Below, one piece after another: positions 15,908 to 37,077 of a stretch of 39,598 bases of DNA. Below the pieces are notes generated by a model. It saw nothing but the letters and a program-made list of their open reading frames with translations, searched no databases and had not been told where the DNA came from. Origin of the DNA: an uncultured Alphaproteobacteria bacterium (GTDB lineage Bacteria; Pseudomonadota; Alphaproteobacteria; CADEGL01); NCBI GenBank assembly GCA_902826885.1, contig CADEGL010000003.1, positions 83,831-123,428 on the forward strand. Direction: 5' to 3'. Both the position numbers and the translations under genes were made by a program. How positions within the stretch are numbered: position 1 is the first letter of the stretch; each line of letters opens with the position of its first letter.

Positions 15908-15970
15908 AACTTTCCCTTGGCTACGGACGGATCGTCTGGCCACGGGGCTTCGTGTAAGTTGCCGCCGATC

Positions 15971-17053: not shown

Positions 17054-18177
17054 CCGGTCTCGGCTTCCAGCTTTTGGCCACCAGCGGCGCGGCGCGGCGC
17101 GGACGGCTTTCGACGGCGCACGGCACGGCCGAGACACCGGCCTTCATGCCGGTCGGCACGGCGGCCACGGTCAAGGCCATGACGGCGGATGCCGTGCGCT
17201 CGACCGGTGCCGAGATTGTGTTGGGCAACACCTATCATCTGATGCTGCGGCCGGGCGCCGAGCGGGTGGAGCGCCTGGGCGGTCTTCACAAGTTCATGGA
17301 TTGGCCGGGGCCGATCCTGACCGATTCGGGCGGTTTCCAGGTCATGTCGCTGGCGCAGCTGCGCGATATCGACGAGCGCGGTGTGCGCTTCCAATCCCAT
17401 ATCGACGGCGCGAAGGAAGAACTGACGCCCGAGCGCGCGATGGACATCCAGCGGCGGTTGGATGCCGACGTGACGATGGTGCTGGACGAATGCACCTCTT
17501 GGCCCATCGAGGCGGGGCCGGCCGCCGAATCCATGCGCCGCTCCATGCGCTGGGCCGAGCGTTGCAAGGCGGCCTTCGTGAAGCGGCCGGGCTACGGGTT
17601 GTTCGGCATCGTGCAGGGCAGCGTCTATCCGGAGTTGCGCGCGGAATCGGCCGAGGCGCTGGTGAAGATCGGCTTCGACGGCTACGCCATCGGCGGGCTG
17701 GCGGTGGGCGAGGGGCGTGACCACATGCTGACGACCGTGCGGCAGACCGCTTCGCTGCTGCCCGCGGACCGGCCGCGTTACTTCATGGGTATCGGCCGGC
17801 CGGAGGATATCGTGGCTTCGGTTGCGCTTGGCATCGACATGTTCGACTGCGTGATCCCGACCCGCTCGGGACGCACCGGCCAGGCCTTCACCCGGCGCGG
17901 GCCGATCAACATCCGCAACGCACGTCACGCCGAAGACCCTCGTCCCATCGACCAGGATTGCGCGTGTCCCGCCTGCCGGACATATAGCCGCGCTTATATC
18001 CACCATCTCGTGCGGGCCGAGGAGATCCTGGGCTTGATGCTGATGAGCTGGCACAACGTCCACTATTATCAGGATCTGATGCGCGACATTCGCGCGTCCA
18101 TCGAGGCGGACGGGTACGAAGCCTTCATGGCGCGCTTCGCGGCGGAGCAGGCGCGAGGCGACATCGCGCCCGTCTAG
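17050..18177 (+). CDS. tgt: queuine/preQ1 tRNA-guanine transglycosylase
   Basis: A 375-residue TIM-barrel enzyme that swaps guanine-34 for preQ1 in tRNAs with a GUN anticodon. The base-recognition aspartate is in [11 protein letters not shown]. The nucleophile aspartate is in [18 protein letters not shown]. The zinc site is [17 protein letters not shown]. It starts with GTG inside the queA stop, so expression is coupled, and ends 32 bases before queF. Confidence 0.96.
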
Positions 18178-18181
18178 CCAT

Positions 18182-18193
18182 GCAAGGCCTTGC
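18182..18193. repeat. 12-bp perfect palindrome between tgt and queF
   Basis: GCAAGGCCTTGC is its own reverse complement and lies in the 32-base gap between tgt and queF. It could be an operator or a small hairpin near the queF ribosome binding site, or chance in GC-rich DNA. Confidence 0.3.
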
Positions 18194-18209
18194 CGCGTAG
18201 TCTGCCGCC

Positions 18210-18668
18210 ATGCCCAAGACCACACGCCTGACCCAGCTTGGACGCGCTGCGCGCATTCCGGCCTCGCCCGAGAAGGCGCGGCTGGAGACGGTGCCCAATC
18301 CCCATCCGGGCACGGCCTATCTGGTGCGCTTCGTTTGCCCGGAGTTCACCTCGCTGTGTCCCATGACTGGCCAGCCGGATTTCGCGCATCTGGTGCTGGA
18401 CTACGCGCCGCGCGCGCGGCTGGTTGAAAGCAAGTCGCTGAAGCTCTACCTGGCGTCCTATCGCAACCACGGCGCGTTCCACGAGGATTGCACGGTGGCG
18501 ATCGCCAAGGCGCTGGAGCGGGCGATGAAGCCGCGTTGGCTTCGCATCGGCGGCTATTGGTACCCGCGCGGAGGGATGCCCATCGATGTCTTCTACCAAA
18601 GCGGCGCCGCGCCCAAGGGGCTCTGGGTCCCCGACCAGGGCGTCCCGCCCTATCGCGGCCGCGGCTGA
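18210..18668 (+). CDS. queF: NADPH-dependent 7-cyano-7-deazaguanine (preQ0) reductase
   Basis: A 152-residue single-domain (YkvM-type) QueF of the tunnelling fold. The catalytic cysteine is in [12 protein letters not shown]. The family signature ESKSLKLYL (NADPH-binding motif) is intact, as is the HEDC segment. It reduces the nitrile of preQ0 to preQ1, which Tgt then inserts. The 3' end overlaps queG by 83 bases in another frame, longer than the usual 4-base overlaps in this window. Confidence 0.95.
18570..18575 (+). promoter_or_regulatory. ribosome binding site that sets the queG start inside queF
   Basis: GGAGGG lies ten bases before the ATG at 18586, all within queF coding sequence. No other ATG, GTG or TTG is available in the queG frame before its conserved N-terminus, so this site supports the long overlap. 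Confidence 0.55.
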
Positions 18669-19773
18669 CGCCGATCCGCGCCGGTCGATCCGCGACCTGG
18701 CGCTGGCGCAAGGATTCGATGCGGTCGGCTTCGCACGCGCCGAAAGCTCGGACGCCGCGAAGCAAGGGTTGGCCGACTACCTGACGCAAGGCTTCCACGG
18801 CGACATGGGCTGGCTGGCGGCGAACGCCGACCGGCGCGCCGATCCGCGCGCCATGTGGCCCGAGGCGCGCACGGCCATCGTCGTCGGCCTCAACTACGGG
18901 CCCGAGCGCAATCCGTTGGAGGGCCTCGCCGACAAAGCGGGCGGCAACGTTTCGGTTTATGCGCGCGGACGCGACTATCACGATCTGATCAAGAAGCGCC
19001 TGAAGGCATTGGCGCGCGAGATCGTGGCGCGCCACGGCGGCGCGGTGAAGGTGTTTGTCGACACCGCACCCTTGATGGAAAAGCCGCTGGCCATGCGCGC
19101 CGGCATCGGCTGGCAGGGCAAGCACACCAACCTCGTCTCCCGCGCGCACGGCTCGTGGCTGTTCCTCGGCTCGGTGCTGACGACACTGGAGATCGCGGCC
19201 GATGCGCCTGAGACCGATCATTGCGGCCAGTGCCGCCGCTGCCACGATGCCTGCCCGACCAACGCGTTTCCCGCGCCCTACCGGCTCGACGCGCGCCGCT
19301 GCATCTCCTATCTCACCATCGAGCACAAAGGGCATATCCCGCGCGAGTTCCGCGCGCCCATGGGCAACCGCATTTATGGCTGCGACGACTGCTTGGCCGT
19401 CTGCCCGTGGAACAAGTTTGCGTCCGCCACCGGCGAGGCAAGCTTCGCTGCGCGGCCGGGTTTGGAGGCGCCGCGGCTGTCCGATCTGGCGCGGCTCGAC
19501 GATGCGTCTTTTCGCGCGCTCTTCGCGGGTTCGCCGATCAAGCGCATCGGGCGCGACCGCTTCGTGCGCAACGTGACCATCGCGCTCGGCAACAGCGGCG
19601 ATCCGGCCGCCACCGGAATCGTCGAAGACCTGCTCGGTGACGTTTCGCCACTGGTGCGTGCCATGGCCGTGTGGGCTTTGGCGCGCCTGGCGCCCGATAG
19701 GATTCCGGCCGCACGCGCGAAACATGGCGCGGCGGAAGCCGATGCCGATGTGCGCGCGGAATGGGACTCTTGA
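18586..19773 (+). CDS. queG: epoxyqueuosine reductase
   Basis: A 395-residue QueG, a cobalamin- and iron-sulfur-dependent enzyme that removes the epoxide oxygen to finish queuosine. Two ferredoxin-type [4Fe-4S] motifs are visible, [13 protein letters not shown] and, further on, [13 protein letters not shown]. The cobalamin-binding reductase domain precedes them ([20 protein letters not shown]). A HEAT-like C-terminal part covers the last 90 residues. The first about 25 residues, which overlap queF, are Ala/Pro/Arg-rich and not conserved in feel. QueG closes the set queA-tgt-queF-queG. Confidence 0.95.
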
Positions 19774-20767: not shown

Positions 20768-21931
20768 ATGGGTCCGCTGGCCGGATTGAAAGTTGTTGAA
20801 TTGGCGGGCATCGGCCCCGGTCCCTTTTGCGCCATGTTGCTTTCGGACATGGGCGCGGAAGTGTTGCGCGTCGACCGCACCCAGCCTTCGGGCCTCGGCG
20901 TCACGCGGCCCGCGAAGTTCGATCTGCTCAACCGCGGCCGCCGCTCTATCGCGGTCGATCTGAAGCACAAGCAGGGCATCGAGACGGTGATGCGCCTGGT
21001 CGAGAAGGCCGATGCGCTGATCGAGCCGTTCCGCCCTGGTGTCGCCGAGCGTCTGGGTGTCGGGCCCGAGGATTGCTTGAAGCGTAATCCGAAGCTGATC
21101 TACGCGCGCATGACCGGCTGGGGCCAGGATGGTCCCTTGGCGCACGCCGCGGGTCACGACCTCAACTACATCTCCATCTCCGGTGCGCTTAACGCCATCG
21201 GTCCGGCCGATGCGCCCGTGCCGCCCTTGAATCTGGTCGGCGATTTCGGCGGCGGCGCGCTCTACATGGCCTTCGGCATCATGTGCGGGGTGTGGGAGGC
21301 CCAGCGTTCCGGTAAGGGACAGGTCGTCGACGTTTCCATGGTCGAAGGCGCGGCGGCCTTGGCCACCGGCTTCTACGGCATGATGGCCGCCGGCATCTGG
21401 CAGGACAAACGCGCGGTCAACATCCTGGATGGCGGCGCGCATTTCTACGGTGTCTACGAGACGAAGGATGGACGCCACGTCTCGCTCGGCGCCATCGAAG
21501 GCAAGTTCTACGACCTGATGCTGGACAAGCTGGGTATCCCCAAGGAAGGGCTACCGAAGCAGTTCGACCGCGCGCAGTGGCCCGCCATGCGCAAGCGCAT
21601 CGCCGACGTGGTCAAGACGAAGACGCAGGAAGAGTGGCGCACAATCATGGAGGGCACGGATGTGTGCTTCGCGCCCGTCCTGTCGTTCCTGGAGGCGCCG
21701 AACCATCCGCACAACAAGGCGCGCGGCAGCTTCGTCGAGGTCGAAGGCGTGGTGCAGCCGGGCCCGGCACCGAAGTTCAGCCGCACGAAGCCCAAGGTGC
21801 AGCGCCCGCCGTCGAATCCCGGCCAGCACACCGACGAGGCGCTGCGGGATTGGGGATTTGCGGCCGGCGACATCGCCGAGCTGAAGAAACAAGGCGCTAT
21901 CGGCTGGCAATCCAGCGAGGCGGCTGACTGA
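20768..21931 (+). CDS. alpha-methylacyl-CoA racemase (CaiB/BaiF family)
   Basis: A 387-residue class III CoA-transferase-fold protein. The racemase triad seems intact: His130-Asp131 (GHDLNY), Asp159 (NLVGDFGGG) and the Glu of GAIEGKFYD, as in the mycobacterial enzyme. This favours epimerisation of 2-methylacyl-CoA thioesters over CoA transfer. I chose the ATG at 20768, preceded by CGGAG at good spacing; a TTG at 20753 is the alternative. It could handle branched-chain, bile-acid or arylpropionyl-CoA substrates. It stands 40 bases before the first M24 gene, in the same direction, but the metabolic link is unclear. Confidence 0.9.
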   Translation: MGPLAGLKVVELAGIGPGPFCAMLLSDMGAEVLRVDRTQPSGLGVTRPAKFDLLNRGRRSIAVDLKHKQGIETVMRLVEKADALIEPFRPGVAERLGVGPEDCLKRNPKLIYARMTGWGQDGPLAHAAGHDLNYISISGALNAIGPADAPVPPLNLVGDFGGGALYMAFGIMCGVWEAQRSGKGQVVDVSMVEGAAALATGFYGMMAAGIWQDKRAVNILDGGAHFYGVYETKDGRHVSLGAIEGKFYDLMLDKLGIPKEGLPKQFDRAQWPAMRKRIADVVKTKTQEEWRTIMEGTDVCFAPVLSFLEAPNHPHNKARGSFVEVEGVVQPGPAPKFSRTKPKVQRPPSNPGQHTDEALRDWGFAAGDIAELKKQGAIGWQSSEAAD

Positions 21932-21971: not shown

Positions 21972-23258
21972 ATGATCACGTCCAAAGACGTCAAGATGAT
22001 CCAGCACGACCGTCTGGCCTTCTCGCTGGGCGAATACCGCCGCCGCTTCGATGCCGTCCTTCACGCGATGGGCGAGAAGGGGATCGACGTGCTGCTGGTG
22101 CGCACGCCGGAGAACATTGCCTATCTGACCGGCTACGTGACGCCCGGTTACTACGGCTATCACTGTCTGATCGTCGCGCGCGACCAAGCGCCCACCCTCG
22201 TCGTGCGCTATCTCGAGCAGACCAACGTGTTCGAGTATTCCTGGCTGTCGGACTCGGTGCCCGTCACCGACGACCGTATTCCCTACGAAGTCACGATCGA
22301 CACGCTGCGCAAGCGCGGCCTGGCCGACAAGCGCGTGGGTGTCGAGAAGACCTCGTTCTTCTCGACCATCGAGGAATATGAAGGGCTGCGGGGCAAGCTG
22401 CCGGAAGCCCATTTCGCCGACGGCTCCGGCATCGTCGAATGGGTGCGGGTGGTCAAATCGCCCGAGGAAATCGCGCTGATGAAGCGCTGCGCCAAGATGC
22501 TGGACCACGGTTCGCGCGCGGGCCTCGATGCGCTCCGCGCGGGCACCACGGAAGACGCCATCGCGGCGGCGATCCACAACGAACTGGTCGGACGCGGCAG
22601 CGAGTATCCCGGCCTGCCTCACTTCGTCGTTTCCGGCCCCCGCATCTCGGTCACCCACGCCACCTGGGAAGGGCGCAAGATCGCCAAGGGCGATCCCGTC
22701 TTCTACGAGCTGTCGGCGACCAAGCATCGCTATTCCTCGGCCATCATGTTCACGGCTTGCGACGGCGAGCCGGAAAAGCGCGTGCGCGCCATGGCCGATG
22801 CTTCGCTGGCGGCGCTGCATGCCGGCATGGCCGCGCTCAAGCCGGGCGTGCCGTGCGAGGAGGTCGATCGCGCCGTCCATGGCGAATGGGTGAAAGCCGG
22901 TTTCGGCGAATACCATCGCCACCGCGCGGCCTATTCCATCGGTATGTGTTTCCCGCCCGATTGGGGCGAGGGCCAGATCCTGTCGTTGAAGAAGGGCGAG
23001 AAGCGCCTGGTTCAGAAGGACATGGTCTTTCACATGGTTCCGGCGGCCTTCATCTATCGCGAGACGGGGGTGGGCTTCAGCGCGACCTTGCACGTGACCG
23101 CGAATGGTTGCGAGCCGCTGTCCATGTTCCCTGGTAAGCTGATCGTGAAGAATGCCGGCGGCGCCAAGCGCGCCTCGGCGAAGAAGTCCGGTGCCAAGGC
23201 GGCCAAGGCGAAGCGTAAGCCCGCCAAGAAGGCCGCGAAGGCAAAGCGTAAGACGTGA
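21972..23258 (+). CDS. creatinase/ectoine-hydrolase-like M24 protein with a Lys/Ala-rich tail
   Basis: A 428-residue pita-bread-fold protein: N-terminal creatinase domain (about 20-160), C-terminal M24 domain (about 165-390), then a basic tail (394-428). Metal ligands of true M24 peptidases are missing: the two-Asp stretch reads FYELSATKHRYSSAIMF, the GHG-type site reads AAYSIG, and the EP and final Glu sites read HMVPAAF and GFSATLHVT. His229 and Glu246, aligning with catalytic/substrate residues of the metal-free enzymes, are kept. Creatinase and EutD/DoeA work without metal on C-N bonds of creatine and ectoine. The tail has 12 Lys and 3 Arg in 35 residues, like histone H1. The ATG follows GGGAGGGGAG. 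Substrate unknown; ectoine-like is a guess. Confidence 0.85.
   Translation: MITSKDVKMIQHDRLAFSLGEYRRRFDAVLHAMGEKGIDVLLVRTPENIAYLTGYVTPGYYGYHCLIVARDQAPTLVVRYLEQTNVFEYSWLSDSVPVTDDRIPYEVTIDTLRKRGLADKRVGVEKTSFFSTIEEYEGLRGKLPEAHFADGSGIVEWVRVVKSPEEIALMKRCAKMLDHGSRAGLDALRAGTTEDAIAAAIHNELVGRGSEYPGLPHFVVSGPRISVTHATWEGRKIAKGDPVFYELSATKHRYSSAIMFTACDGEPEKRVRAMADASLAALHAGMAALKPGVPCEEVDRAVHGEWVKAGFGEYHRHRAAYSIGMCFPPDWGEGQILSLKKGEKRLVQKDMVFHMVPAAFIYRETGVGFSATLHVTANGCEPLSMFPGKLIVKNAGGAKRASAKKSGAKAAKAKRKPAKKAAKAKRKT
23151..23255 (+). repeat. tail-coding Lys/Ala repeat of the first M24 gene
   Basis: This stretch encodes the last 35 residues of the M24 protein and contains an imperfect internal duplication: two copies of an AAKAKRK unit (near residues 410-416 and 421-427) separated by PAKK. 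The second M24 paralogue ends right where this tail begins. Such tails occur on bacterial histone-H1-like proteins and some DNA- or RNA-associated enzymes. Confidence 0.7.
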
Positions 23259-23265
23259 CGGTGAG

Positions 23266-23862
23266 ATGACGACGAAACCACCCCAAGCCGGACGGGTCGG
23301 CAAGGCCGGAACGCGTGCCGTGCTTCCCGTGGCGGGCGCCGGCACCGGCGCGCGCATCAAGCTGGATGCCATCGACCTCAAGATCCTGGCGGCCCTCCAG
23401 CGCGATGGCCGTCTGACCAAGATCAAGCTGGCCGAGGAGGTCGGTCTTTCCGTCAGCCCGTGCCTGGAGCGCATGCGCCGGCTCGAGAAAGCCGGTTTCA
23501 TCCGCGGCTACAACGCCGAGATCGACCTGTCGAAGCTGTTGTCGGCTTCGCGCGTATTCGTCGAGATCACGCTGGGCGGTCACACGGCGGTAGATTTCGA
23601 GCGGTTCGAGGCGGCCATCGAGGCCGTGCCCGAGGTGGTCGAATGCCATGCCATCGGTGGCGGCATGGATTACCTGATGAAGGTCGTGGCGACCGATATC
23701 GACCACTATCAGCAGGTCATCGAGGAGCTGCTGAACGCCAATATCGGCATCGCGCGCTACTTCACCTACATCGTTACAAAGCCCGTGAAGCGCGCGCAGG
23801 GTTACCCCATCCAGCATCTTTTGACGCGCGCCAAGCAGCGCCGGACGACCGAGCAGACCTAA
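23266..23862 (+). CDS. Lrp/AsnC-family transcriptional regulator
   Basis: A 198-residue regulator. After a disordered Ala/Gly-rich lead of about 30 residues comes the AsnC helix-turn-helix (LDAIDLKILAALQRDGRLTK through GLSVSPCLERMRRLEKAGFI) and a RAM ligand-binding domain (VFVEITLGGHTAVDFERFEA to the KPVKRAQGYP end). The ATG is eight bases past the M24 stop, so the two are probably co-transcribed. Lrp/AsnC members sense amino acids. AsnC-type regulators (DoeX/AsnC) are found in ectoine-degradation gene sets, which is one reason to compare this locus with them. A nearby palindrome in the gap before ald is a candidate target. Confidence 0.92.
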   Translation: MTTKPPQAGRVGKAGTRAVLPVAGAGTGARIKLDAIDLKILAALQRDGRLTKIKLAEEVGLSVSPCLERMRRLEKAGFIRGYNAEIDLSKLLSASRVFVEITLGGHTAVDFERFEAAIEAVPEVVECHAIGGGMDYLMKVVATDIDHYQQVIEELLNANIGIARYFTYIVTKPVKRAQGYPIQHLLTRAKQRRTTEQT

Positions 23863-24022
23863 GCTCGGCAATAGTTTCTGTCCGCCCCGATAGCCGGCGA
23901 AATATTTCCTGCCCTCATCATCGCTTTCGGTCGCTCCCGCCGCGCGAAACTTGATAGCTCATCGTCCCTGAACCGCGCGGTCCGCGCGGGGTTTACAAAA
24001 AACAGGGATGGGGAGTTTCGCG
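23863..24022 (+). promoter_or_regulatory. lrp-ald intergenic region with a palindromic operator-like site
   Basis: This 160-base gap holds GAAATATTTC (23899-23908), a perfect 10-bp AT-rich palindrome flanked by GGC and GCC, in otherwise GC-rich DNA. That is the kind of site an Lrp/AsnC dimer binds. A GC hairpin (CCGCGC/GCGCGG near 23971-23988) and GGGGAG (24010-24015), the ald ribosome binding site, follow. I find no clear -35/-10 pair. Binding by the adjacent regulator is inference. Confidence 0.4.
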
Positions 24023-25141
24023 ATGCTGGTCGGCGTTCCGAAGGAGATTAAGACGGAAGAGCATCGCGTGGGCATGGTGCCCGGCGGTGTGCGCGAGTTG
24101 GCCTCGCGCGGCCACAAGGTCATCGTGCAGGCGGGCGCGGGCGCGGGCATCAACTGCGACGACGCGGAATACCAGGCTGCTGGCGCGCGCATCGCCAAGG
24201 ATGCCGCCGAGGTCTTCGCCGCCGCGGACATGATCGTGAAGGTCAAGGAACCACAGGCCGCCGAATGCGCCATGCTGCGCCCCGGTCAGGTCTTGTTCAC
24301 CTATCTGCACCTGGCCGCGGATGCGGCGCAAAAGGACGGGCTGCTCAAATCCGGCGGTATCGCCATTGCCTACGAGACCGTCACGGGGCCGACGGGCGGA
24401 TTGCCGCTTTTGGCGCCCATGTCGGAAGTGGCCGGCCGCATGAGCGTGCAGGTCGGCGCCCATTGCCTGGAAAAGGCGCGTGGCGGCCGGGGCATGCTTT
24501 TGGGCGGCGTGCCGGGCGTCGAGCCGGGCCACGTGGTGGTGGTCGGCGGCGGCATCTCGGGCCTCAACGCGGCCCGCATGGCCATGGGCCTGGGCGCGCG
24601 CACGACCGTGATCGACAATTCCATCAACAAGTTGCGCGAGATCGACGCACTGTTCGGCGGCCGCATCCAGACGATCTATTCGACGCGAGATGCTATCGAG
24701 CGTCAGGTGCGGGACGCGGATCTCGTGATCGGCGCCGTGCTGGTGCCGGGCGCGACCGCGCCCAAGCTGGTCGACCGCAAGACCATCGCCGCCATGCGGC
24801 CGGGCTCGGTCGTCGTCGACATCGCCATCGACCAGGGCGGCTGCTTCGAGACCAGCAAGCCCACGACCCATTCCAAGCCGACCTACGAGGTCGATGGCGT
24901 GGTGCATTACTGCGTCACGAACATGCCGGGCGCCGTGCCCCGCACCTCGACCTATGCACTGACCAACGCGACGTTGCCGTTCGTCCTGGCGCTGGCCGAC
25001 AAGGGCTACAAGAAAGCCCTGACCGACGACGCGCATCTGGCGCTCGGTCTCAACGTGCACAAGGGCGTGCTGACGCACCCCGAAGTGGCGCGCGCCTTCA
25101 ACGAAACATTCGTTCCGACGCCGCAGGCTCTCGCCGCCTGA
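24023..25141 (+). CDS. ald: alanine dehydrogenase
   Basis: A 372-residue AlaDH/PNT-family enzyme, the normal length. It opens with [22 protein letters not shown]. The substrate-binding lysine is in VKVKEPQ, the catalytic His in FTYLHLAAD, the NAD-binding motif in [15 protein letters not shown] and the signature DQGG in [13 protein letters not shown]. It interconverts alanine and pyruvate plus ammonia with NAD. The ATG at 24023 is set by GGGGAG seven bases upstream; an ATG at 24008 is a poorer choice. Being next to an Lrp/AsnC gene is a common arrangement. In this cluster it could also recycle amino groups from a transaminase step, but no transaminase is in the window. Confidence 0.94.
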
Positions 25142-25184
25142 TCTGTCGGGAATCGTGGGAAGCCGGGGAAAAGAGGAGACGGCC

Positions 25185-26687
25185 ATGCCGTACGACAACG
25201 ACCTCTTCCGGATGCTCAAGGACGCGTCGCTTTTTCGCCAACAGGCATACCTGAACGGTGCCTGGTGCGACGCCGATTCCGGCGAAACCGATGCCGTCGA
25301 GAACCCGGCGGACGGCAGCCGGATCGGCGCGGTGCCCAACATGGGTGCCGTGGAGACGCGGCGCGCGATCGCGGCGGCTTCGGCGGCGTTCGCCCATTGG
25401 CGCGGTCTGACCGCCACCGAGCGGGCCCGCGCCTTGCGGCGCTGGAACGATCTGATCCTCGCAAACCGGGACGATCTGGCCCTGATCATGACGCTGGAGC
25501 AGGGAAAGTCCCTGGCCGAATCGCGTGGCGAGATCGAGTACGCGGCCAGCTTCGTCGAATGGTTCGCCGAGGAAGCCAAGCGTGCTTATGGCGAGGTCAT
25601 TCCGAGCCACCTGGCCGGGCGGCGCCTGATCGCGACGCGCGAGCCGATCGGCGTCGCGGCCGCCATCACGCCGTGGAACTTCCCATCCGCCATGATCACG
25701 CGTAAGGCCGCCGCCGCGATGGCGGCCGGCTGTCCCATGATCGTGCGTCCGTCGCCTGAAACGCCGTTCTCGGCCTTGGCGCTGGCCGAACTGGCCGCGC
25801 GCGCGAGCCTGCCGAAAGGCGTGTTCCAGGTCGTGACCGGCGATGCCGTCGCGATCTCGAACGCGCTGATGGAAAGCGCCGAGGTGCGCGCGGTGTCCTT
25901 CACCGGCTCGACCGAGGTGGGGCGCATCCTGCTGGCGGGCGGCGCCGCGACCGTCAAGAAGATGTCCATGGAGCTGGGCGGCCATGCGCCGTTCATCGTC
26001 TTCGATGACGTGGACCTGCCCACGGCGTCGTTGGACGCCATCGGCGCCAAGTTCGTGACCACGGGCCAGGATTGCCTGGCGGCCAACCGCATCTTCGTAC
26101 AGGACGGTATTTACGACGCCTTCGCGGCCGATTTCACCGCCCGTGCCGCCGCGCTCAAGGTGGGCGCTGGGCTCGAGCCCGATGTCGACCTGGGGCCGCT
26201 GATCGATGCGCGCGCGATCGTGAAACTGGAGCGCCAGGTGGCCGATGCCCTGTCCAAGGGCGCGCGGCTTCTGACCGGCGGCAAACGCCATGCGCGCGGC
26301 GGATTGTTCTTCGAGCCGACCGTCCTGGCCGATGCGACGCCGGAGATGGAGATCTTCCGCGAGGAGACGTTTGGCCCGGTGGCGGCGTTGTTCCGCTTCC
26401 ACGACGAGGACGCGGTCATCCGCCAGGCCAACGATTCGATCTACGGCCTCGCGGCCTATGTCTACAGCGCCGATCTGGCGCGGGCCTGGCGCGTGGGCGA
26501 GCAGCTCGACTACGGCATGGTCGCCTTCAACGGCGTGAAGATGACCGGCCCGCCGGTTCCCTTCGGCGGGGTGAAGCAATCGGGCCTGGGCCGCGAAGGC
26601 TCGCGCCATGGCCTCGACGAATACATGCAGCTCAAGTATTTCTGCGTTAACGGAATCGACCGGCCGGCTTTGAAGCGGACCGGTTGA
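25185..26687 (+). CDS. NAD(P)-dependent semialdehyde dehydrogenase, GabD-like
   Basis: A 500-residue aldehyde dehydrogenase closest in feel to succinate-semialdehyde dehydrogenases. Visible are ITPWNFPSAMITRKAAAAMA, the catalytic Glu263 in MELGGHAPF, and the nucleophile Cys297 in TTGQDCLAANR. The usual cofactor-binding Lys (KPS..TP) is Arg188 here, and the GabD-typical ELGGNAPF has His for Asn. The ATG follows AGAGGAG. Substrate could be succinate, aspartate or malonate semialdehyde. In ectoine degradation an SSADH-like enzyme oxidises aspartate semialdehyde, which would fit the neighbours. Confidence 0.9.
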   Translation: MPYDNDLFRMLKDASLFRQQAYLNGAWCDADSGETDAVENPADGSRIGAVPNMGAVETRRAIAAASAAFAHWRGLTATERARALRRWNDLILANRDDLALIMTLEQGKSLAESRGEIEYAASFVEWFAEEAKRAYGEVIPSHLAGRRLIATREPIGVAAAITPWNFPSAMITRKAAAAMAAGCPMIVRPSPETPFSALALAELAARASLPKGVFQVVTGDAVAISNALMESAEVRAVSFTGSTEVGRILLAGGAATVKKMSMELGGHAPFIVFDDVDLPTASLDAIGAKFVTTGQDCLAANRIFVQDGIYDAFAADFTARAAALKVGAGLEPDVDLGPLIDARAIVKLERQVADALSKGARLLTGGKRHARGGLFFEPTVLADATPEMEIFREETFGPVAALFRFHDEDAVIRQANDSIYGLAAYVYSADLARAWRVGEQLDYGMVAFNGVKMTGPPVPFGGVKQSGLGREGSRHGLDEYMQLKYFCVNGIDRPALKRTG

Positions 26688-26706: not shown

Positions 26707-27768
26707 ATGGCGGTAACGGAACGTCCGTCGCGGATTCTCGATGCCGGCACGCTGCGCCGATTCGCCGCCGATCTCCTGGTCGCGGCCGGCTGTTCGCGCG
26801 AAGACGCGGCGGCATCGGCCGAAGTCTTCGTCGAGGCCGATCTGCGCGGCTTCTCGGGCCAGGGCGTCGATTATCTGCCCTACATGGTCCACTACCTGCG
26901 GGACGGTAAGATCGACCCGAAGGGCAAGCCGGAAATCCTCCGCGATCTGCCCGCCGCCGTCCTGATCGATGGACATAAGGGGCCGGGCCACGCGGCGGCC
27001 TTTCTGGCCTGCGACATCGCCGCGAAGAAGGCGAAGGAAGCGGGAAGCGCCACGGTGGCGCTGGCCAACTCGGCCGACATCTACATGATCGGGTACTACG
27101 CCGAACGGCTGGCGCGCGCCGGTGTCGTCGGCATGGTCGCGACGTCGGGGCCGCCGCTGGTCCATCCGCCGGGCGGCATGGAGCGGATGCTGTCCACCAA
27201 TCCGATCGCCTTCGCCTTTCCGCTCGACGGGCCCGACCCGTTCGTCGTGGACATGGCGATGAGCACGATGTCGCGCTCCCACGTCCGCCTTGCCGCCTAT
27301 CACAAGGAGCAGGTTCCATCCGGTACCGGCATTGGGCCCGATGGCCGTCCCTCGACCGACGCGGTCACGGTGATGGCGGGTGCGCTCAGCACCTTGGCGG
27401 GACACAAGGGCTTCGGGCTGGCCTTGTCGGTGGCGCTCATGTGCGGGCCTTTGACCACGAGCGAGGCTGGCCCCGCGCTGGTGGGCTGGCAGGACGAAGG
27501 CAAGGTCGGCCGCCACGGCCATCTGTTCGTCGCCATCGATCCGGCCGCGTTTGGCGCGCCGGATGAGTTCCGCCGTGCGGCGAGCGCGCACATCGCCGAG
27601 ATCAAGAATTCCAAGACCGCGCCTGGGTCGGCCGGAATTCGCATTCCGGGCGAGCGCGGTTTCGCCGAGCGCGCGAAACGTCTGAAATCGGGCGTGTCGG
27701 TGTTGGAAGCGACCTGGACGACGCTCGGCAAGATCGCCGCCGAATTGAAGGTGACAATGCCCGCATAA
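26707..27768 (+). CDS. Ldh_2-family oxidoreductase lacking the conserved histidines
   Basis: A 353-residue member of the malate/L-lactate/ureidoglycolate dehydrogenase (Ldh_2, DpkA/YlbC) family. The scaffold is clear: PPGGMERMLSTNPIAFAFP, FVVDMAMSTM and LAGHKGFGLALSVALM. Two normally conserved histidine motifs are changed. The RG-x-x-SHG loop reads RGFSGQG (residues 47-53) and the NS-x-H-x-G loop reads NSADIYMIG (121-129). The flanks match the family, so this is not a frameshift. An ATG at 26692 could also be the start; GGGGGG precedes the one chosen. Known members reduce cyclic imines or 2-keto acids; with the His lost, the reaction here is uncertain. It lies 19 bases after the aldehyde dehydrogenase. 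Confidence 0.85.
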   Translation: MAVTERPSRILDAGTLRRFAADLLVAAGCSREDAAASAEVFVEADLRGFSGQGVDYLPYMVHYLRDGKIDPKGKPEILRDLPAAVLIDGHKGPGHAAAFLACDIAAKKAKEAGSATVALANSADIYMIGYYAERLARAGVVGMVATSGPPLVHPPGGMERMLSTNPIAFAFPLDGPDPFVVDMAMSTMSRSHVRLAAYHKEQVPSGTGIGPDGRPSTDAVTVMAGALSTLAGHKGFGLALSVALMCGPLTTSEAGPALVGWQDEGKVGRHGHLFVAIDPAAFGAPDEFRRAASAHIAEIKNSKTAPGSAGIRIPGERGFAERAKRLKSGVSVLEATWTTLGKIAAELKVTMPA

Positions 27769-27932: not shown

Positions 27933-29117
27933 ATGGCCAAACCTGGCTTCAAGCTCAAGCTTGTTGAGCATGAACGGCTCAACTTTACGCCTGCCGAATA
28001 CCGCCGCCGCTACGACCTCGTCACCGCGATGATGAAGAAGGAGGGCATCGACGTCCTCTTGGTTCGTGGCCCGGAAAACCTCTGTTACCTGACCGGCTAC
28101 GAGACGCCGGGCTATTACGGCTATCACTGCCTCGTCCTGTCGTTGCAGGACCAGCCGGTGATGGTCATGCGCAGCTTCGAGTCGCTCAACGTGTACGAGT
28201 ACACGTGGCTCGATGGCTTCACCGAGATCAAGGACTACATGGTGCCGGCCGACGTGACGGCCTCGGTGATCCAGAAGCTCGGCCTCGGCAACAAGACCAT
28301 CGGCGTCGAGAAGCGCGGCTGGTTCTTCAACGTCTTCGAATACGAGAACCTGAAGAGCCACTTCCCCAAGGCGAAGATCGTCGATTCGACGCACATCGTC
28401 GAGGAAGCGCGCCTCATCAAGTCCGATGAGGAGCTGGACACGATGCGCAAGGCCGCGCGCATCCTGGACCGCGCCGTTCAGGCCGGCATCGACAAGGTTG
28501 CCGGTGGCGTCACGGACAACGACGTGGCCGCCGAGGTGGAGCGCGTGCTGACCACCAACGGCAGCCAGTATCCGGGCCTGCCGCCCTTCATCCTGTCGGG
28601 CGCGCGCACCTGCCTGCCGCACCAGACCTGGCGTAACGAAGTGATCCAGGAAGGCGAGCCGGTTTATTTCGAGGTCTCCGCCAACATCAACCGCTATACG
28701 GCGGCGATCATGCGCTGCTGTAACGTGGGTGAGCCGCGCCCGATCGTGCGCAAGATGGCGGATGCGGTCATCGGCGGCCTGGAAGCGGCCATCGACAAGA
28801 TCAAGCCGGGCGTCACCTGCGAGGCCGTGGACAAGGCCGCGCGCAGCGTGGTGGAGAAGGCGGGCTTCGGCGAATTCTTCCGCCACCGCACGGGCTACTC
28901 CATCGGCGTTGCGTTCCCGCCGGACTGGGGCGAGGGGCAGATCCTGTCGCTCAAGCCGCGCGAGACACGGAAGCTCGAGACCAACATGACGTTCCACATG
29001 GTGCCGCTGACGCTCAAGTATCGCGATTGCGGCATCGGCTTCAGCGCGTCGGTCCGCGTCACCAAGACCGGTTGCGAGGTGCTGAACGGCCTTCCGCGCA
29101 AGCTGATCATCAAGTGA
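27933..29117 (+). CDS. second creatinase/ectoine-hydrolase-like M24 protein
   Basis: A 394-residue paralogue of the M24 protein at 21972, sharing long near-identical stretches such as KxGIDVLLVRxPEN, the LTGYxTPGYYGYHC segment and FPPDWGEGQILSLK. It too has lost the M24 metal ligands (VYFEVSANINRYTAAIMR, GYSIG, HMVPLTLKY, GFSASVRVT) while keeping His230 and Glu247. It ends at LPRKLIIK with no basic tail. The ATG has AGGGGA seven bases upstream. A terminator-like hairpin follows, then the M20 hydrolase, which could deacylate or decarbamoylate its product. Possibly each paralogue handles one of two related substrates. Confidence 0.87.
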   Translation: MAKPGFKLKLVEHERLNFTPAEYRRRYDLVTAMMKKEGIDVLLVRGPENLCYLTGYETPGYYGYHCLVLSLQDQPVMVMRSFESLNVYEYTWLDGFTEIKDYMVPADVTASVIQKLGLGNKTIGVEKRGWFFNVFEYENLKSHFPKAKIVDSTHIVEEARLIKSDEELDTMRKAARILDRAVQAGIDKVAGGVTDNDVAAEVERVLTTNGSQYPGLPPFILSGARTCLPHQTWRNEVIQEGEPVYFEVSANINRYTAAIMRCCNVGEPRPIVRKMADAVIGGLEAAIDKIKPGVTCEAVDKAARSVVEKAGFGEFFRHRTGYSIGVAFPPDWGEGQILSLKPRETRKLETNMTFHMVPLTLKYRDCGIGFSASVRVTKTGCEVLNGLPRKLIIK

Positions 29118-29223: not shown

Positions 29224-30471
29224 ATGGCTGCCTGGGAATCCCTGCGCGTCGACATCGCGCGCTTGCGCAACGACATCGAGACGCTTTCCAAGATCGGCCG
29301 CGCGCCCGATGGCGCCTTGACGCGCCACGCTTTCGCGCCCGCCTATGAAGAGGCGCGGCGCTGGCTCAAGGGCCGCATGGAAGAGGCCGATATCCCCTCG
29401 CGCGACGACGCGGCGGGCAACACGATCGGCCATGTCGGCGCGGCCGATGGGCCGGTGGTCATGTCGGGCTCGCACATCGACACGGTGCCGGACGGTGGGC
29501 CGCTGGACGGCGCCTTTGGTGTTCTGTCCGCGCTTGAATGCGCCCGCGTGATCCGGGCCGCGAATCTCAGCGCGCCGCGCGGGTTCGAGCCTGTCGCCTT
29601 CATCGACGAGGAAGGCCGCTTTCTCGACTGCATGGGCTCCAAGGCCATGGCCGGGCGCCTGGACATGAACGAAGTCGCCCATGCCAAGGACCCGAACGGC
29701 GGCTCGCTCGGCGACGCCATGCGCCAGGCCGGTTTCGACCTGGAGAAGATCGGCAAGGCCAAGCGCAAGAAGGGCGACATCGCGGCCTATATCGAGCTGC
29801 ATATCGAGCAGGGGCCGGTGCTGGAAGCCAAGGGCATGCCGATCGGCGTGGTCGAGGGCATCGTCGGCATCGACCATTCGGACTTCGTCTTCAAGGGCGA
29901 GCCGGACCATGCCGGCACCACGCCCATGGACATGCGCAAGGACGCCTTCACCGGCGCGGCCGAATTCGCCTACAAGGCGCGGCGCATGGCGCTCAAGCGC
30001 GGGACGCCCCTGACGCGCATCACCTACGGCATCGTGAAGTCGAAGACGGCGGCGGCCAATATCGTGCCGCCCGAGATCTATATGCGTCAGGAGTTGCGCG
30101 ACATCGACCAGAAGCTGCTGAAGCGTCTGGTCAAGGCGAGCTATCGGCTGGCCGACAAGGTCGCGGCCGAGCACCGGCTCACGGTCACGCACGAGCACAT
30201 CTCCGGCAACACCTCGGCGCTCATGGCGCCGCGGGTGCAGGACATGATCGAGGGCGCGGCCAAGGCGTTGGGATTGGGTTCGCACCGCATGCCGTCGGGC
30301 GCCGGCCACGATGCCCAGGTGATGGCGCGGGTGGCCGATGCCGGCATGATCTTCGTGCCGTCCGAAGGCGGGCGCAGCCACCGGCGCGACGAATGGACCG
30401 ACTGGAAGCTGTTGGAGCAGGGCGCCAACGTGCTGCTGCAGTCGATCCTGCGGCTGATGCACGCGGCGTAG
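29224..30471 (+). CDS. M20 zinc amidohydrolase, N-carbamoyl-L-amino-acid hydrolase/AllC-like
   Basis: A 415-residue dizinc hydrolase of the hydantoinase/carbamoylase branch. The metal and catalytic residues look intact: SGSHIDTVPDGGPLDGAFGV, the acidic pair in AFIDEEGRF, ELHIEQGPVLE and PSEGGRSHRRDEWT. The dimerisation domain sits between (GEPDHAGTTPMDMRKDA). Family members remove carbamoyl, acyl or ureido groups from amino acids (N-carbamoylases, ureidopropionase, allantoate amidohydrolase). The ATG has GTGGAG upstream. Next to two metal-free M24 proteins it is a candidate for the second hydrolysis after ring or amidine opening, the step done in ectoine breakdown by EutE/DoeB, which is a different family and absent here. 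Confidence 0.92.
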   Translation: MAAWESLRVDIARLRNDIETLSKIGRAPDGALTRHAFAPAYEEARRWLKGRMEEADIPSRDDAAGNTIGHVGAADGPVVMSGSHIDTVPDGGPLDGAFGVLSALECARVIRAANLSAPRGFEPVAFIDEEGRFLDCMGSKAMAGRLDMNEVAHAKDPNGGSLGDAMRQAGFDLEKIGKAKRKKGDIAAYIELHIEQGPVLEAKGMPIGVVEGIVGIDHSDFVFKGEPDHAGTTPMDMRKDAFTGAAEFAYKARRMALKRGTPLTRITYGIVKSKTAAANIVPPEIYMRQELRDIDQKLLKRLVKASYRLADKVAAEHRLTVTHEHISGNTSALMAPRVQDMIEGAAKALGLGSHRMPSGAGHDAQVMARVADAGMIFVPSEGGRSHRRDEWTDWKLLEQGANVLLQSILRLMHAA

Positions 30472-33542: not shown

Positions 33543-33586
33543 TTGACTGCCCGAACCGCCGGATTTAATTTTAGGCCGTTCGGCCT
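33543..33586. promoter_or_regulatory. divergent promoter/operator region between the oxidase and aldolase operons
   Basis: On the plus strand TTGACT (33543-33548) and TTTAAT (33564-33569, 15-base spacer, 5/6 match) make a plausible promoter. Just after it is an inverted repeat AGGCCG-TT-CGGCCT (33573-33586), well placed for a repressor. On the minus strand the same AT-rich core offers TAAAAT as a -10 for the oxidase operon. The aldolase leader would be about 140 bases. No regulator gene is adjacent. Confidence 0.4.
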
Positions 33587-33716
33587 GGAATTTGGGTGGC
33601 GGTGTCCGTGGAAATGGTCGCGGGCGCCGGCCCCTCTGACAAGGGGTATTTCGGCCGGTTCGTTGCTAGGATACGGCCCTCGGCGCGGGGACGCGCGCGA
33701 AGGGAGGGAGGCGGTC

Positions 33717-34478
33717 ATGACGGGCAACGTGGTGCGGATCGACGAGAAGGCCGATCCGGTTTGGCGGGCGCGGGTCGACCTGGCGGCGGCGCATCGGCTG
33801 GCGCACCGTTTCGGCTTCGACGACGGGATCTGGAACCATTTCACGTTGGTGGTGCCGGGCACGACCGACCGCTTCTTCGTGAAGCCGCACGGCGTGCTGA
33901 TGTCGGAAGTCACCGCGTCCAACCTGATTGTCTCGGATTTCGACGGCAATATCGTGGAGGGGCGCGGCAAGATCGAGCGCTCGGCGCTCTGTATCCACGC
34001 CTCGTTCCACAAGCTCGGGCCGCATGCGGCGTGCGTGCTGCATTGTCATCCGGCTTATACGACGTGGCTGACCATGACCAAGCCGGGACGGCTGCTGATG
34101 GTCCACCAGGATGCGCTGCGCTTCCACGACCGCGTCGCCTACGACGACCATTTTGGTGGACTCGGCACGTCTTTCGAGGAAGGCGCGCGCATGGCCGCCG
34201 CGTTGGGCGACAAGCCGCTGCTGTTGTCGGCCAATCACGGCGTCACGGCCGTGGGCGCGAACGTCTCGCAGACTTGGTACGACCTCTATTACATGGAGCT
34301 GGCCTGCCAGCAGCTTCATCGGATCAAGGAATCGGGCGAAGAGCCGCGCGTGGTACCCCAGCAGATCGCACAGTTCACGCGCAGCCAGCTCGACGACGAA
34401 TGGGAAGAGAGCGCGGCCTTGAGCTATGAGGCGCTGAAGCGTGATCTCGACCGCGAAGAACCCGACTACAAGAGCTGA
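33717..34478 (+). CDS. class II aldolase/adducin-family protein
   Basis: A 253-residue zinc aldolase-like protein. The zinc site HCHPAY is visible, with further His residues in LLSANHGVTAVG and an upstream HASFH segment. The ATG at 33717 is set by an AGGGAGGGAGG run; the open frame upstream is noncoding leader. Family members cleave sugar phosphates (fuculose-, ribulose-phosphate) or act as dehydratases and decarboxylases on related compounds. It heads a run with two PhyH dioxygenases eight bases downstream, so it may cleave a hydroxylated product. Confidence 0.88.
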   Translation: MTGNVVRIDEKADPVWRARVDLAAAHRLAHRFGFDDGIWNHFTLVVPGTTDRFFVKPHGVLMSEVTASNLIVSDFDGNIVEGRGKIERSALCIHASFHKLGPHAACVLHCHPAYTTWLTMTKPGRLLMVHQDALRFHDRVAYDDHFGGLGTSFEEGARMAAALGDKPLLLSANHGVTAVGANVSQTWYDLYYMELACQQLHRIKESGEEPRVVPQQIAQFTRSQLDDEWEESAALSYEALKRDLDREEPDYKS

Positions 34479-34486
34479 GGCGCGCG

Positions 34487-35323
34487 ATGGGCAAGGCACT
34501 GACGGACAAAGAGATCGCGGCCTATCGCGCGAACGGTTTCCACGCGCCCTTGCGGGTGATGTCCGAGGAGGACGCGTTGGAATACCGCCGCCACCTCGAG
34601 CGCATCGAGGCGGAACGGCCGGAAAGCCTCAACAAGCTCGACCTCAAGGGCAACTTGCTGCTGCCGTGGATGGATCGGATCACCCGCACGCCGCGCATGC
34701 TGGACGCGCTGGAGGACATCATGGGCCCCAATCTCCTGTGCTGGAACGCGAGTGTTCGGAACAAGAAGGCGAAAAGCCCGACCTATGCCGGCTGGCACCA
34801 GGACACGCGCTACATCACGATCCGCCCGACCGGCACGATCGCGTTCCTGGCTCTGTCGCCCACCAACACCGACAGCGGCACGGTCAGCGTCGTTCCCGGC
34901 TCGCACAAGTGGGACGTGCTGCCCCACGAAGACACCCACGACAAGGACAGCATCTTGACGCGCGGCCAGTACATCACCGCCGAATTCGATAAATCGAGCA
35001 TCGCGCCCTTGCAGTTGCGCCCGGGCGAATGCGGCTTCTTCGACCACAACATCGTCCACAGCTCCGGTCCCAATCACACGAACGACCGGCGGTTGGTCAT
35101 GCTGATGGGGTATTTCGCGACCAAGTCGAAGCCCATGGACGATCGCCGCGTCTCGGCCTTCGTCGTGCGCGGCACCGACGAATATCGCTATTTCGACGCC
35201 GACCGCGCGCCGGTGGAGGAGTTCGGCCCGGCCGAGCTGGCCGCCCACCGCGAGGCCGTGGAAGTACAGGCCAAGAAGATTCTCTACAAGGACAGTGACC
35301 GCCAGGCGATCGCGTTGAGCTGA
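34487..35323 (+). CDS. phytanoyl-CoA dioxygenase (PhyH)-family Fe(II)/2-oxoglutarate oxygenase, copy 1
   Basis: A 278-residue non-heme iron oxygenase with the facial triad intact: HxD in AGWHQDTRYI, and the distal His in FDHNIVHSSGPNHTNDRR, which also bears the 2-oxoglutarate-binding arginine. The middle has VSVVPGSHKWDVLPHEDTHDK. Members hydroxylate small acids, amines or phosphonates. It lacks the sequence signature of ectoine hydroxylase EctD, so it is not called that. The next gene is a same-length paralogue eleven bases on. The ATG is eight bases past the aldolase stop. Confidence 0.9.
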   Translation: MGKALTDKEIAAYRANGFHAPLRVMSEEDALEYRRHLERIEAERPESLNKLDLKGNLLLPWMDRITRTPRMLDALEDIMGPNLLCWNASVRNKKAKSPTYAGWHQDTRYITIRPTGTIAFLALSPTNTDSGTVSVVPGSHKWDVLPHEDTHDKDSILTRGQYITAEFDKSSIAPLQLRPGECGFFDHNIVHSSGPNHTNDRRLVMLMGYFATKSKPMDDRRVSAFVVRGTDEYRYFDADRAPVEEFGPAELAAHREAVEVQAKKILYKDSDRQAIALS

Positions 35324-35333
35324 GGGAAACACA

Positions 35334-36170
35334 ATGGCGCCCAAATACGGACTGACCAAGGAACAGCTTGCCGCTTACGACCGAGACGGCTACCTCGCGC
35401 CCATCCCGGTTTACACCGAGGCCGAGATGGCCGAGATCCGCGGCAAGCTGGAGGAACTCCAGGCGCGCTATCCCGAAGCCACCAAGAAGATCGATCTGAA
35501 GGCGCACCTGGTTTGTCCGTGGCTCGACGAGATGATCCGCCATCCGCGCTTCCTCGACGTGGTGGAAAGCGTCTTCGGCACACCGGACATCCTGTGCTGG
35601 ACCAGCTCGTTCCGCTTCAAGAAGCCGAACAGCCCGACCTACGCGGGTTGGCACCAGGACACGATGTACATCAAGATCGAGCCCGCCGTGACGTTCTGGC
35701 TGGCTTTTACGCCCTCCAGCGAGGCCAACGGCGGCATGAAAGTCATTCCTGGTTCGCACAAGGGGCCGCTCCTGCCGCACGCGGACACGCAAGACAAAGA
35801 CAGTATCCTCACGCGCGGCCAGTACATCACCTCCAAGGTCGACGACTCGAAGGCCATCTCGGTCGACCTCAAGGCCGGCGAGGCCGCCATATTTCACCAC
35901 AACCTGATCCACGGGTCGGGGCCGAACTTCGTGGACCGTTGGCGCATCCTGTTCCTGCCGAGCTACATGCCGACCTCGGCGGTGAACAAGGGTCCGCGCG
36001 ACTGCGCGGCCGTCGTGCGCGGCAAGGACATCCACCATAATTTCGACCCCGAGCCGCCGTGCCATGGCGAGATGACGCCCGAGGCCATCGAGGCGCATCG
36101 CGTGGCCGTCGAGTACAGCGCGGCCACCATGTACAAGGACGCCCAGCACAAGCCGGTCGCCCTGTCCTAA
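35334..36170 (+). CDS. PhyH-family Fe(II)/2-oxoglutarate oxygenase, copy 2
   Basis: Also 278 residues and clearly a tandem duplicate of the preceding gene: AGWHQDTMYIKI, KDSILTRGQYITSK and FHHNLIHGSGPNFVDRWR align without gaps. Iron and 2-oxoglutarate ligands are kept, so both copies should be active. The residue after the HxD motif and the segment before the distal His differ, suggesting different substrates or successive steps on one molecule, or a heterodimer. The ATG has GAGGGAAA upstream. Confidence 0.9.
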   Translation: MAPKYGLTKEQLAAYDRDGYLAPIPVYTEAEMAEIRGKLEELQARYPEATKKIDLKAHLVCPWLDEMIRHPRFLDVVESVFGTPDILCWTSSFRFKKPNSPTYAGWHQDTMYIKIEPAVTFWLAFTPSSEANGGMKVIPGSHKGPLLPHADTQDKDSILTRGQYITSKVDDSKAISVDLKAGEAAIFHHNLIHGSGPNFVDRWRILFLPSYMPTSAVNKGPRDCAAVVRGKDIHHNFDPEPPCHGEMTPEAIEAHRVAVEYSAATMYKDAQHKPVALS

Positions 36171-36219
36171 ACCGGATACCGTCGCTTCCCATGTGGCGCA
36201 TGGTTATGCTGCGCGCCGC

Positions 36220-37077
36220 ATGGATGCCGTCTCCGGCTTGAGTCCCGAGGAGCGTTTGCGCCGCCTGCCGATCTGGTCGGCCGCGCCCACGGTCACGCGC
36301 CTGGCGGTCGGCCGCACCAACATCAACTACAGCGTCGCGGCGGGCGGACAGCGTTTCTTCGCGCGAGTCGCGGCCGATCTGCCGCATCACGGCATCGTGC
36401 GCGGCCGCGAGGCGCTGTGCGCATCGCTGGCCGCCGACCTCGGCGTGGCGCCGCCGGTCGTCCATGCCCACGATGGCGTGCTGGTGCAACGCTTCATGGA
36501 CGGCGAGACGTTGCGGCAGGGTGACACGCTTTCGTCCGCGCGCCTGGACCGCATCGTGGACGTTCTGCGCCGTATCCATGAAGGCCGTTTGCCCGCGGAT
36601 ACGCCCGACGCCAATCCCGCCGCCTGGTCGCGCGCGTATCTGGCGCGTTTGAAGCCGGGCGTGTTGCCGTCCGCCGCCCGCGCCCGCATCGAAGCCATCC
36701 TGGACGCATCGCCCAAAGGCGCGCTGCAGGGGCTCATCCACACCGACCTGATCCCCGAGAACTTCATCGACGATGGCCACCGCATGTGGCTGATCGATTG
36801 GGAGTATGCGGGCCTGGGCGATCCCGCGACCGACTTGGCCAATCTGGGGATGAATTTCGCCCTCGACGAGGCGGTTCTTGCGCGCGCGGTCGAACGTCAC
36901 GGCGGCGTGGACCGCGCCACGGTCGATGGGCTCAAGGACGCGGTTGTTGTGCGCGAAGCGCTCTGGTGCCTGATCCAAATTCAGGCCGAAGGCATTCGCG
37001 GCGATCTGGCCGATTACACGCGCCTGTGCCTCGGCCGGCTCGGCATCGATGCCGCCGGTATCCGGGGGATCGGCTAA
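36220..37077 (+). CDS. APH/choline-kinase-like phosphotransferase
   Basis: A 285-residue kinase of the aminoglycoside-phosphotransferase superfamily. The catalytic loop is LIHTDLIPENFID (HxDxxxxN), the metal-binding motif is WLIDWEYAGLGDP, typical of choline and ethanolamine kinases (LicA-like), and RTNINYSV is the glycine-poor nucleotide loop. It may phosphorylate a small amine alcohol. The ATG at 36220 is chosen; a GTG at 36193 would add nine residues. Its stop shares a base with the next ATG (TAATG), so it is coupled to the GlpA-like flavoprotein. Confidence 0.85.
   Translation: MDAVSGLSPEERLRRLPIWSAAPTVTRLAVGRTNINYSVAAGGQRFFARVAADLPHHGIVRGREALCASLAADLGVAPPVVHAHDGVLVQRFMDGETLRQGDTLSSARLDRIVDVLRRIHEGRLPADTPDANPAAWSRAYLARLKPGVLPSAARARIEAILDASPKGALQGLIHTDLIPENFIDDGHRMWLIDWEYAGLGDPATDLANLGMNFALDEAVLARAVERHGGVDRATVDGLKDAVVVREALWCLIQIQAEGIRGDLADYTRLCLGRLGIDAAGIRGIG

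Follow-up and report, generated by a model that had tools for sequence, protein, structure and literature searches.

The DNA stretch analysed here (the window, 39,598 nucleotides) encodes an oxidoreductase of the Ldh_2 family (PF02615) without either of the conserved histidines (26707..27768, + strand; P0001, 353 aa). It is one of 11 copies from five genomes of the same bacterial family that share these losses; Ldh_2 copies with Gln52 and Asp124 in this family are referred to as the QD clade. The clade is best explained as a catalytically rebuilt L-sulfolactate-dehydrogenase-like enzyme: both histidines and their hydrogen-bond partners were lost, and the residues contacting NAD(P) were kept. 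Judged from its sequence, it likely has a changed reaction or substrate.

The frame at 26707-27768 is open, and its two motifs read RGFSGQGVDY and NSADIYMIG. The Pfam Ldh_2 model matches the full length of the protein (residues 13-340; 346 bits against a cut-off of 38.8). None of the NCBIfam equivalog cut-offs is reached, be it for sulfolactate (218 vs 500 bits), ureidoglycolate (150 vs 496) or malate/lactate dehydrogenase (200 vs 336), and P0001 is an Ldh_2 fold-family protein outside every characterised equivalog. Among proteins of solved structure, the closest in sequence are L-sulfolactate dehydrogenase 2x06, 1v9n, 3uoe, 1vbi, and AllD 1xrh, all five of which have both histidines. An ungapped alignment with Escherichia coli AllD, for which residue numbers and roles were taken from PMC3527362, places Gln52 (codon CAG, 26860..26862, +) on His44, the histidine of the SHG motif, and Asp124 (codon GAC, 27076..27078, +) on His116, the general base and the histidine of the NxxH motif. 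The same two substitutions are present in the orthologue of a sister species (93% identity, shared ATG start). Alignment, codons, and orthologue thus confirm the first-pass annotation of the window, which had reported both active-site histidine motifs as missing. The cofactor residues Thr164, Pro166, Asp182, and Lys234 correspond to Thr156, Pro158, Asp174, and Lys224 of AllD.

In AllD, the H116A variant is inactive, and H44A lowers kcat/Km from 54.3 to 0.10 mM-1 s-1, i.e. about 540-fold (PMC3527362, Table 2). The old reaction is therefore unlikely to survive a silent loss of these residues. According to the authors of that study, neither histidine varies among family members, and they infer that every member uses one of the two (PMC3527362). 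A literature search, with most subscription papers outside its reach, found no report of a histidine-less Ldh_2 protein. The QD clade resembles the known Ldh_2 enzymes (ComC/2x06, AllD, YlbC, YiaK, and 3uoe) in whole-length sequence, fold, and cofactor residues, but differs from them in the replacement of both histidines together with their Ser and Tyr partners. An AlphaFold model built from six sequences (pLDDT 73, pTM 0.75; low confidence at residues 149-165 and 228-269) gave 27 Foldseek matches in the PDB with E under 0.001, all of them Ldh_2 enzymes and the best being 2x06 (TM about 0.73). The predicted structure supports the Ldh_2 fold, but not an active-site geometry around Asp124 and His153.

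The 11 QD copies were compared with 115 other Ldh_2 proteins, comprising 105 from a search of the class, eight from a search of the phylum, L015, and L018; the 105 class proteins consisted of 25 given loci and 80 of 91 further rows from outside the family, with 11 rows omitted. Most of the 115 are best matches to a QD-clade profile, and the sample is biased towards the clade. Position 52 is Gln in all QD copies and His in all 115 others, and position 124 is Asp in 10 of 11 copies vs His in 113 of 115. Ser at position 51 (AllD Ser43) and Tyr at position 60 (AllD Tyr52) occur in none of the QD copies, compared to 103 and 106 of the 115, respectively. Two active-site glycines are also replaced across the clade: position 126 (Tyr in P0001, 27082..27084, +) is Tyr or Phe in 11/11 copies and Gly in 110/115 others, and position 191 (Ser in P0001, 27277..27279, +) is Ser or Thr in 11/11 and Gly in 109/115. 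His153 of a VHPxGG motif (27163..27165, +), a candidate new acid/base, is found in 11/11 QD copies and 5/115 others. Asp182 (27250..27252, +), a conserved residue of the cofactor site, is present in 11/11 and 115/115 proteins; Asn165 and Pro166 are likewise retained in all QD copies, and Lys or Arg at position 234 in the 10 copies with data. The earlier statement that the scaffold is otherwise normal therefore holds for the cofactor residues, but not for the active site, in which positions 51, 60, 126, and 191 are altered in every copy. By these counts, the substitutions appear to be beyond chance and not a one-off. The single copy with another residue at position 124, L009 (G004:C378:4778-5827), is a tandem copy with Gly; its orthologue L008 has Asp. 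Six plasmid-borne relatives (two from Actinomycetota and one each from Thermus, Halomarina, Priestia, and Sinorhizobium) have both histidines.

To place the clade, a tree of 126 rows was calculated after removal of columns 51, 52, 55, 56, 124, 126, 153, and 191 (quick search, no bootstrap). All 11 QD copies fall on one side of a branch with an SH-aLRT support of 99, so that a clade sharing the substitutions, which the first-pass annotation had suggested looking for, was recovered. The nearest branch (L047, L055, L056, L057, and L114; support 88) has SHG and NxxHxG intact in each of its five proteins, and these are the only ones among the 115 in which His153 occurs, beside normal histidines. 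For five QD orthologue pairs, dN/dS values (Nei-Gojobori) of 0.075, 0.111, 0.099, 0.127, and 0.118 were obtained, compared to 0.02-0.12 for the neighbouring genes of the window. The clade is under purifying selection and, since dN/dS is 0.07-0.13 in all five pairs, is not decaying. An assembly or sequencing artefact, or a gene in decay, might be suspected because the five genomes all have the look of fragmented assemblies and L009 has Gly at position 124. Against this, the ten remaining copies, drawn from five assemblies, are in agreement and the frames are open; together, residue counts, the one-branch tree, and dN/dS led us to reject this explanation, which we consider extremely improbable. 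The view of the first-pass annotation that the losses do not reflect decay is upheld by monophyly, selection, full length, and retained cofactor residues, and neither a single aberrant sequence nor relaxed selection was found: there are 11 copies in five genomes.

A tandem pair elsewhere in the sample, L095 and L146 (G057; L174 5980-8323, G057:C96), keeps SHG and has Ser and Ala at position 124. Next to it are genes for a TRAP transporter and for a protein of the creatininase family. As the pair is placed far from the QD clade in the tree, loss of the second histidine has occurred more than once. Loss of the first histidine appears to be particular to the QD clade among the sequences sampled.

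The QD type was found in all five genomes searched of the window's family, which is the whole order as sampled. The window's genome (G000) has two Ldh_2 genes, both of the QD type, and no canonical Ldh_2. Like G001, it has one of its copies in an operon and the other in a trp region, whereas G003 and G004 have three tandem copies each and G002 has one gene, apparently divided between two contigs. In profile searches, the clade scored at least 298 bits (the lowest value belonging to a partial gene), and the next best protein 256 bits (385 class and 398 phylum genomes). No member from outside the family was seen in the class scan (385 genomes) or in the phylum scans (398 genomes, repeated with 398 of largely the same draw), with up to five candidates scored per genome in each case. 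The genome_contigs search returned two relatives from the family and one relative of 29% identity with both histidines, but no outside QD member; none was found among viral contigs, or among plasmids, where the best identities were 37% and 35% among the matches listed. Recent transfer and a wide subfamily were both rejected on the basis of these non-exhaustive scans. Among the DNA sampled, the QD clade thus appears to be lineage-restricted, confined to one bacterial family.

In the window, the gene belongs to a same-strand run (nine genes, 20.7-31.1 kb) that reaches from a CoA-transferase gene at 20.8 kb to a DUF1275 gene at 31.1 kb. The run starts with the family III CoA-transferase (20768..21931, +; the listed ORF starts at TTG 20753), followed by a creatinase/ectoine-hydrolase-like gene, M24a (21972..23258, +), a Lrp/AsnC-type regulator (23266..23862, +; assigned at family level), and an alanine dehydrogenase (24008..25141, +; TIGR00518, over cut-off). 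A succinate-semialdehyde-type (SSADH-type) aldehyde dehydrogenase with a DoeC-like role (25155..26687, +), assigned at family level, stops 19 bases upstream of the Ldh_2 gene. Downstream are a second ectoine-hydrolase-like gene, M24b (27933..29117, +), and an M20 hydrolase of the hydantoinase/carbamoylase type (29224..30471, +). Gene order in G001 is identical. For both M24 proteins, the top-scoring models are those of ectoine hydrolase, DoeA_2 (M24a 289 and M24b 294 bits; cut-off 575) and DoeA (cut-off 613). For M24b, the closest solved structures are those of DoeA (6twk and 6twj), with an E value of 2e-55 and a common PPDWGE stretch for 6twk.

Around the other copies, a similar setting is found in part. 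The G004 locus runs from M20 (319 bits to the DoeB2 model, cut-off 550) through M24 (DoeA_2 426, cut-off 575) and an acyl-CoA dehydrogenase to the three Ldh_2 copies; the G003 locus resembles this order. In G002, a distance of 4.4 kb separates the C-terminal Ldh_2 fragment from an M24 gene (DoeA 422 bits, cut-off 613). Ectoine hydrolase models are therefore the best-scoring ones for the neighbouring M24 gene in each of three distinct locus types, all scores in the window, G002, and G004 being under the curated cut-offs. Enolase-family and PLP genes near the G002 fragment had raised a EutABC-like reading of this locus, which was set aside, the PLP and sulfurtransferase genes resembling ordinary cysteine metabolism by eye. 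No aldehyde dehydrogenase was found near the copies in G002-G004. The trp-region copies of G000 and G001 have no adjacent M24 gene; what follows downstream on the same strand, after about 0.6 kb in G000 and 1 kb in G001, is a double EctC-like gene (PF06339; 242 bits to NCBIfam PRK13290, cut-off 128), a neighbour seen in both genomes of this one genus only. The expectation that the gene always sits beside M24/M20 genes was therefore met in part: M24 lies within 4.5 kb of a QD copy in 5/5 genomes, and M20 as well in 4/5, but the second copies of G000 and G001 break the rule. Moreover, G000-G004 have 33-39 genes with a Peptidase_M24 domain per 3.1-3.9 Mb genome, which makes M24 adjacency less telling than it appears; a random gene has a 4-9% chance of an M24 neighbour within 2-4.5 kb. 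We regard the context as no more than suggestive.

Ectoine is a stress protectant. Its breakdown proceeds by ring opening (DoeA), deacetylation (DoeB), transamination (DoeD), and oxidation by the SSADH-related DoeC, which in Halomonas elongata acts on the semialdehyde made by DoeD; DoeX is an AsnC/Lrp protein (PMC5924519, PMC3187862). Putative ectoine clusters of Bacillaceae are without eutE and include abgB, a putative amidohydrolase (PMC13188858). Compared with the doeABXCD and eutABCDE clusters, the window likewise has, by family, a DoeA-like M24 gene, a Lrp/AsnC regulator, and an SSADH-type dehydrogenase. It differs in scoring below the cut-offs, in having two M24 genes and an M20 gene in the place of DoeB/EutE, and in having the QD Ldh_2 and alanine dehydrogenase instead of an aminotransferase (DoeD/Atf), none of which occurs among the nine genes of the run. 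Within the fold family, to which the malate-lactate transhydrogenase of Veillonella also belongs (PMC13034625), DpkA (piperideine/pyrroline-2-carboxylate reductase, 1wtj) reduces a cyclic imino acid (PMC6110843). Its six-ring imine reduction models the chemistry proposed below; its proposed acid is the equivalent of His44 (PMC3527362), where the QD clade has Gln.

Because of the DpkA precedent in the fold and the counterparts of DoeA, DoeX, and DoeC in the window, we propose that the QD Ldh_2 is an active NAD(P)-dependent C-N oxidoreductase, acting on a cyclic imino or amidino acid of the ectoine-like kind and not on a 2-hydroxy acid, a reading we hold with somewhat less than even confidence. 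Hydride would be transferred to or from the retained nicotinamide site. Asp124, which occupies the position of the general base, would serve as proton donor/acceptor or stabilise a cationic imine, perhaps together with the invariant His153. Carboxylates serve as acid/base in other imine-reducing enzymes. In the window, the enzyme would act between the ring-opening DoeA-like M24 proteins, the M20 deacylase/decarbamoylase, and the DoeC-type aldehyde dehydrogenase. The creatininase gene beside the L095/L146 pair, in which only the second histidine is lost, also counts in favour of C-N chemistry, as does the double EctC-like gene near the second copy in both genomes of the genus. Counted against it are the ectoine-model scores below cut-off, the chance frequency of M24 neighbours, and the distance and one-genus occurrence of the EctC-like neighbour. 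A wider reading seems to us tentative and rather doubtful: the Ldh_2 active site would have been re-invented in nature, and the QD clade, the first to lack both catalytic histidines, would have become a (de)hydrogenase of cyclic imino or amidino acids that relies on an Asp acid/base, its hosts being bacteria with multiplied ectoine-synthase-like and ectoine-hydrolase-like genes.

The sister branch bears on what the ancestor did. It has VHPxGG and a neighbouring SSADH-type aldehyde dehydrogenase (43-47% identical to that of the window) in common with the QD clade, but differs in keeping SHG and NxxHxG (3uoe-like motifs by eye) and in having an iron-dependent alcohol dehydrogenase (Fe-ADH); Ldh_2, Fe-ADH, and SSADH-type dehydrogenase stand together in 5/5 sister loci. 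This association suggests alcohol/aldehyde chemistry in the ancestor and counts against the C-N reading. Together with the invariance of His153, its presence in the sister branch, and the SSADH-type gene that the window retains 19 bases upstream, it would fit an enzyme that is still a 2-hydroxyacid or alcohol dehydrogenase, with the proton relay shifted to His153 or Asp124. We find such a shift unlikely, as the Ser43 and Tyr52 partners are gone too and tblastn detected no Fe-ADH in the QD loci examined (window, L020, L021, and L023).

The run without an aminotransferase, with its DoeA-like, Lrp, DoeC-like, and M20 genes, and the role of DoeD in H. elongata would suit a deaminating dehydrogenase that stands in for DoeD and turns a diamino acid into the semialdehyde for the adjacent aldehyde dehydrogenase. 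This is improbable given that the copies in G002-G004 have no such dehydrogenase nearby, that aminotransferases elsewhere in the genome could serve, and that the run already includes an alanine dehydrogenase to process an amino acid. The known proton network is replaced at each of its four residues around an intact cofactor site, which could also point to a non-catalytic NAD(P)-binding homologue, i.e. a pseudoenzyme or sensor. We give this little credence, because genomes have up to three diverged tandem copies, the new residues (Gln, Asp, Tyr/Phe, His, and Ser/Thr) are strictly conserved, the gene sits within a catabolic run, and G000 has no canonical Ldh_2 to regulate.

Preserved in nature with neither histidine, the QD clade offers a ready test of what hydride transfer demands of the Ldh_2 fold, and may lead to nitrogen-rich solutes as yet undescribed. 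If the C-N reading is true, annotation as malate/lactate dehydrogenase (Ldh family) is wrong for the QD clade; if the re-invention is true as well, the enzyme would belong to a larger set of undescribed ectoine-like solutes and the routes that break them down.

The M24 abundance in the window's family is a lineage-specific expansion: in a class sample (192 genomes, up to 15 scored each), first-look M24 candidates mostly numbered 1-13 per genome, with a maximum of 20. Ectoine-synthase-like (PF06339) domains number 5-10 per genome in the family, often in double-domain proteins and tandem arrays (L075, G003:C194; L076, G004:C81; L021; L024; L077-L088), and 1-3 in 19 of 189 genomes elsewhere in the class sample. 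Past the cluster, the window has a class II aldolase, two PhyH-type dioxygenase-like genes, a GntI/APH-like kinase, and DAO-type oxidoreductases (33543-38450), possibly another catabolic set. Ahead of it, queA, tgt, and queG are consecutive (15917-19773), representing queuosine synthesis.
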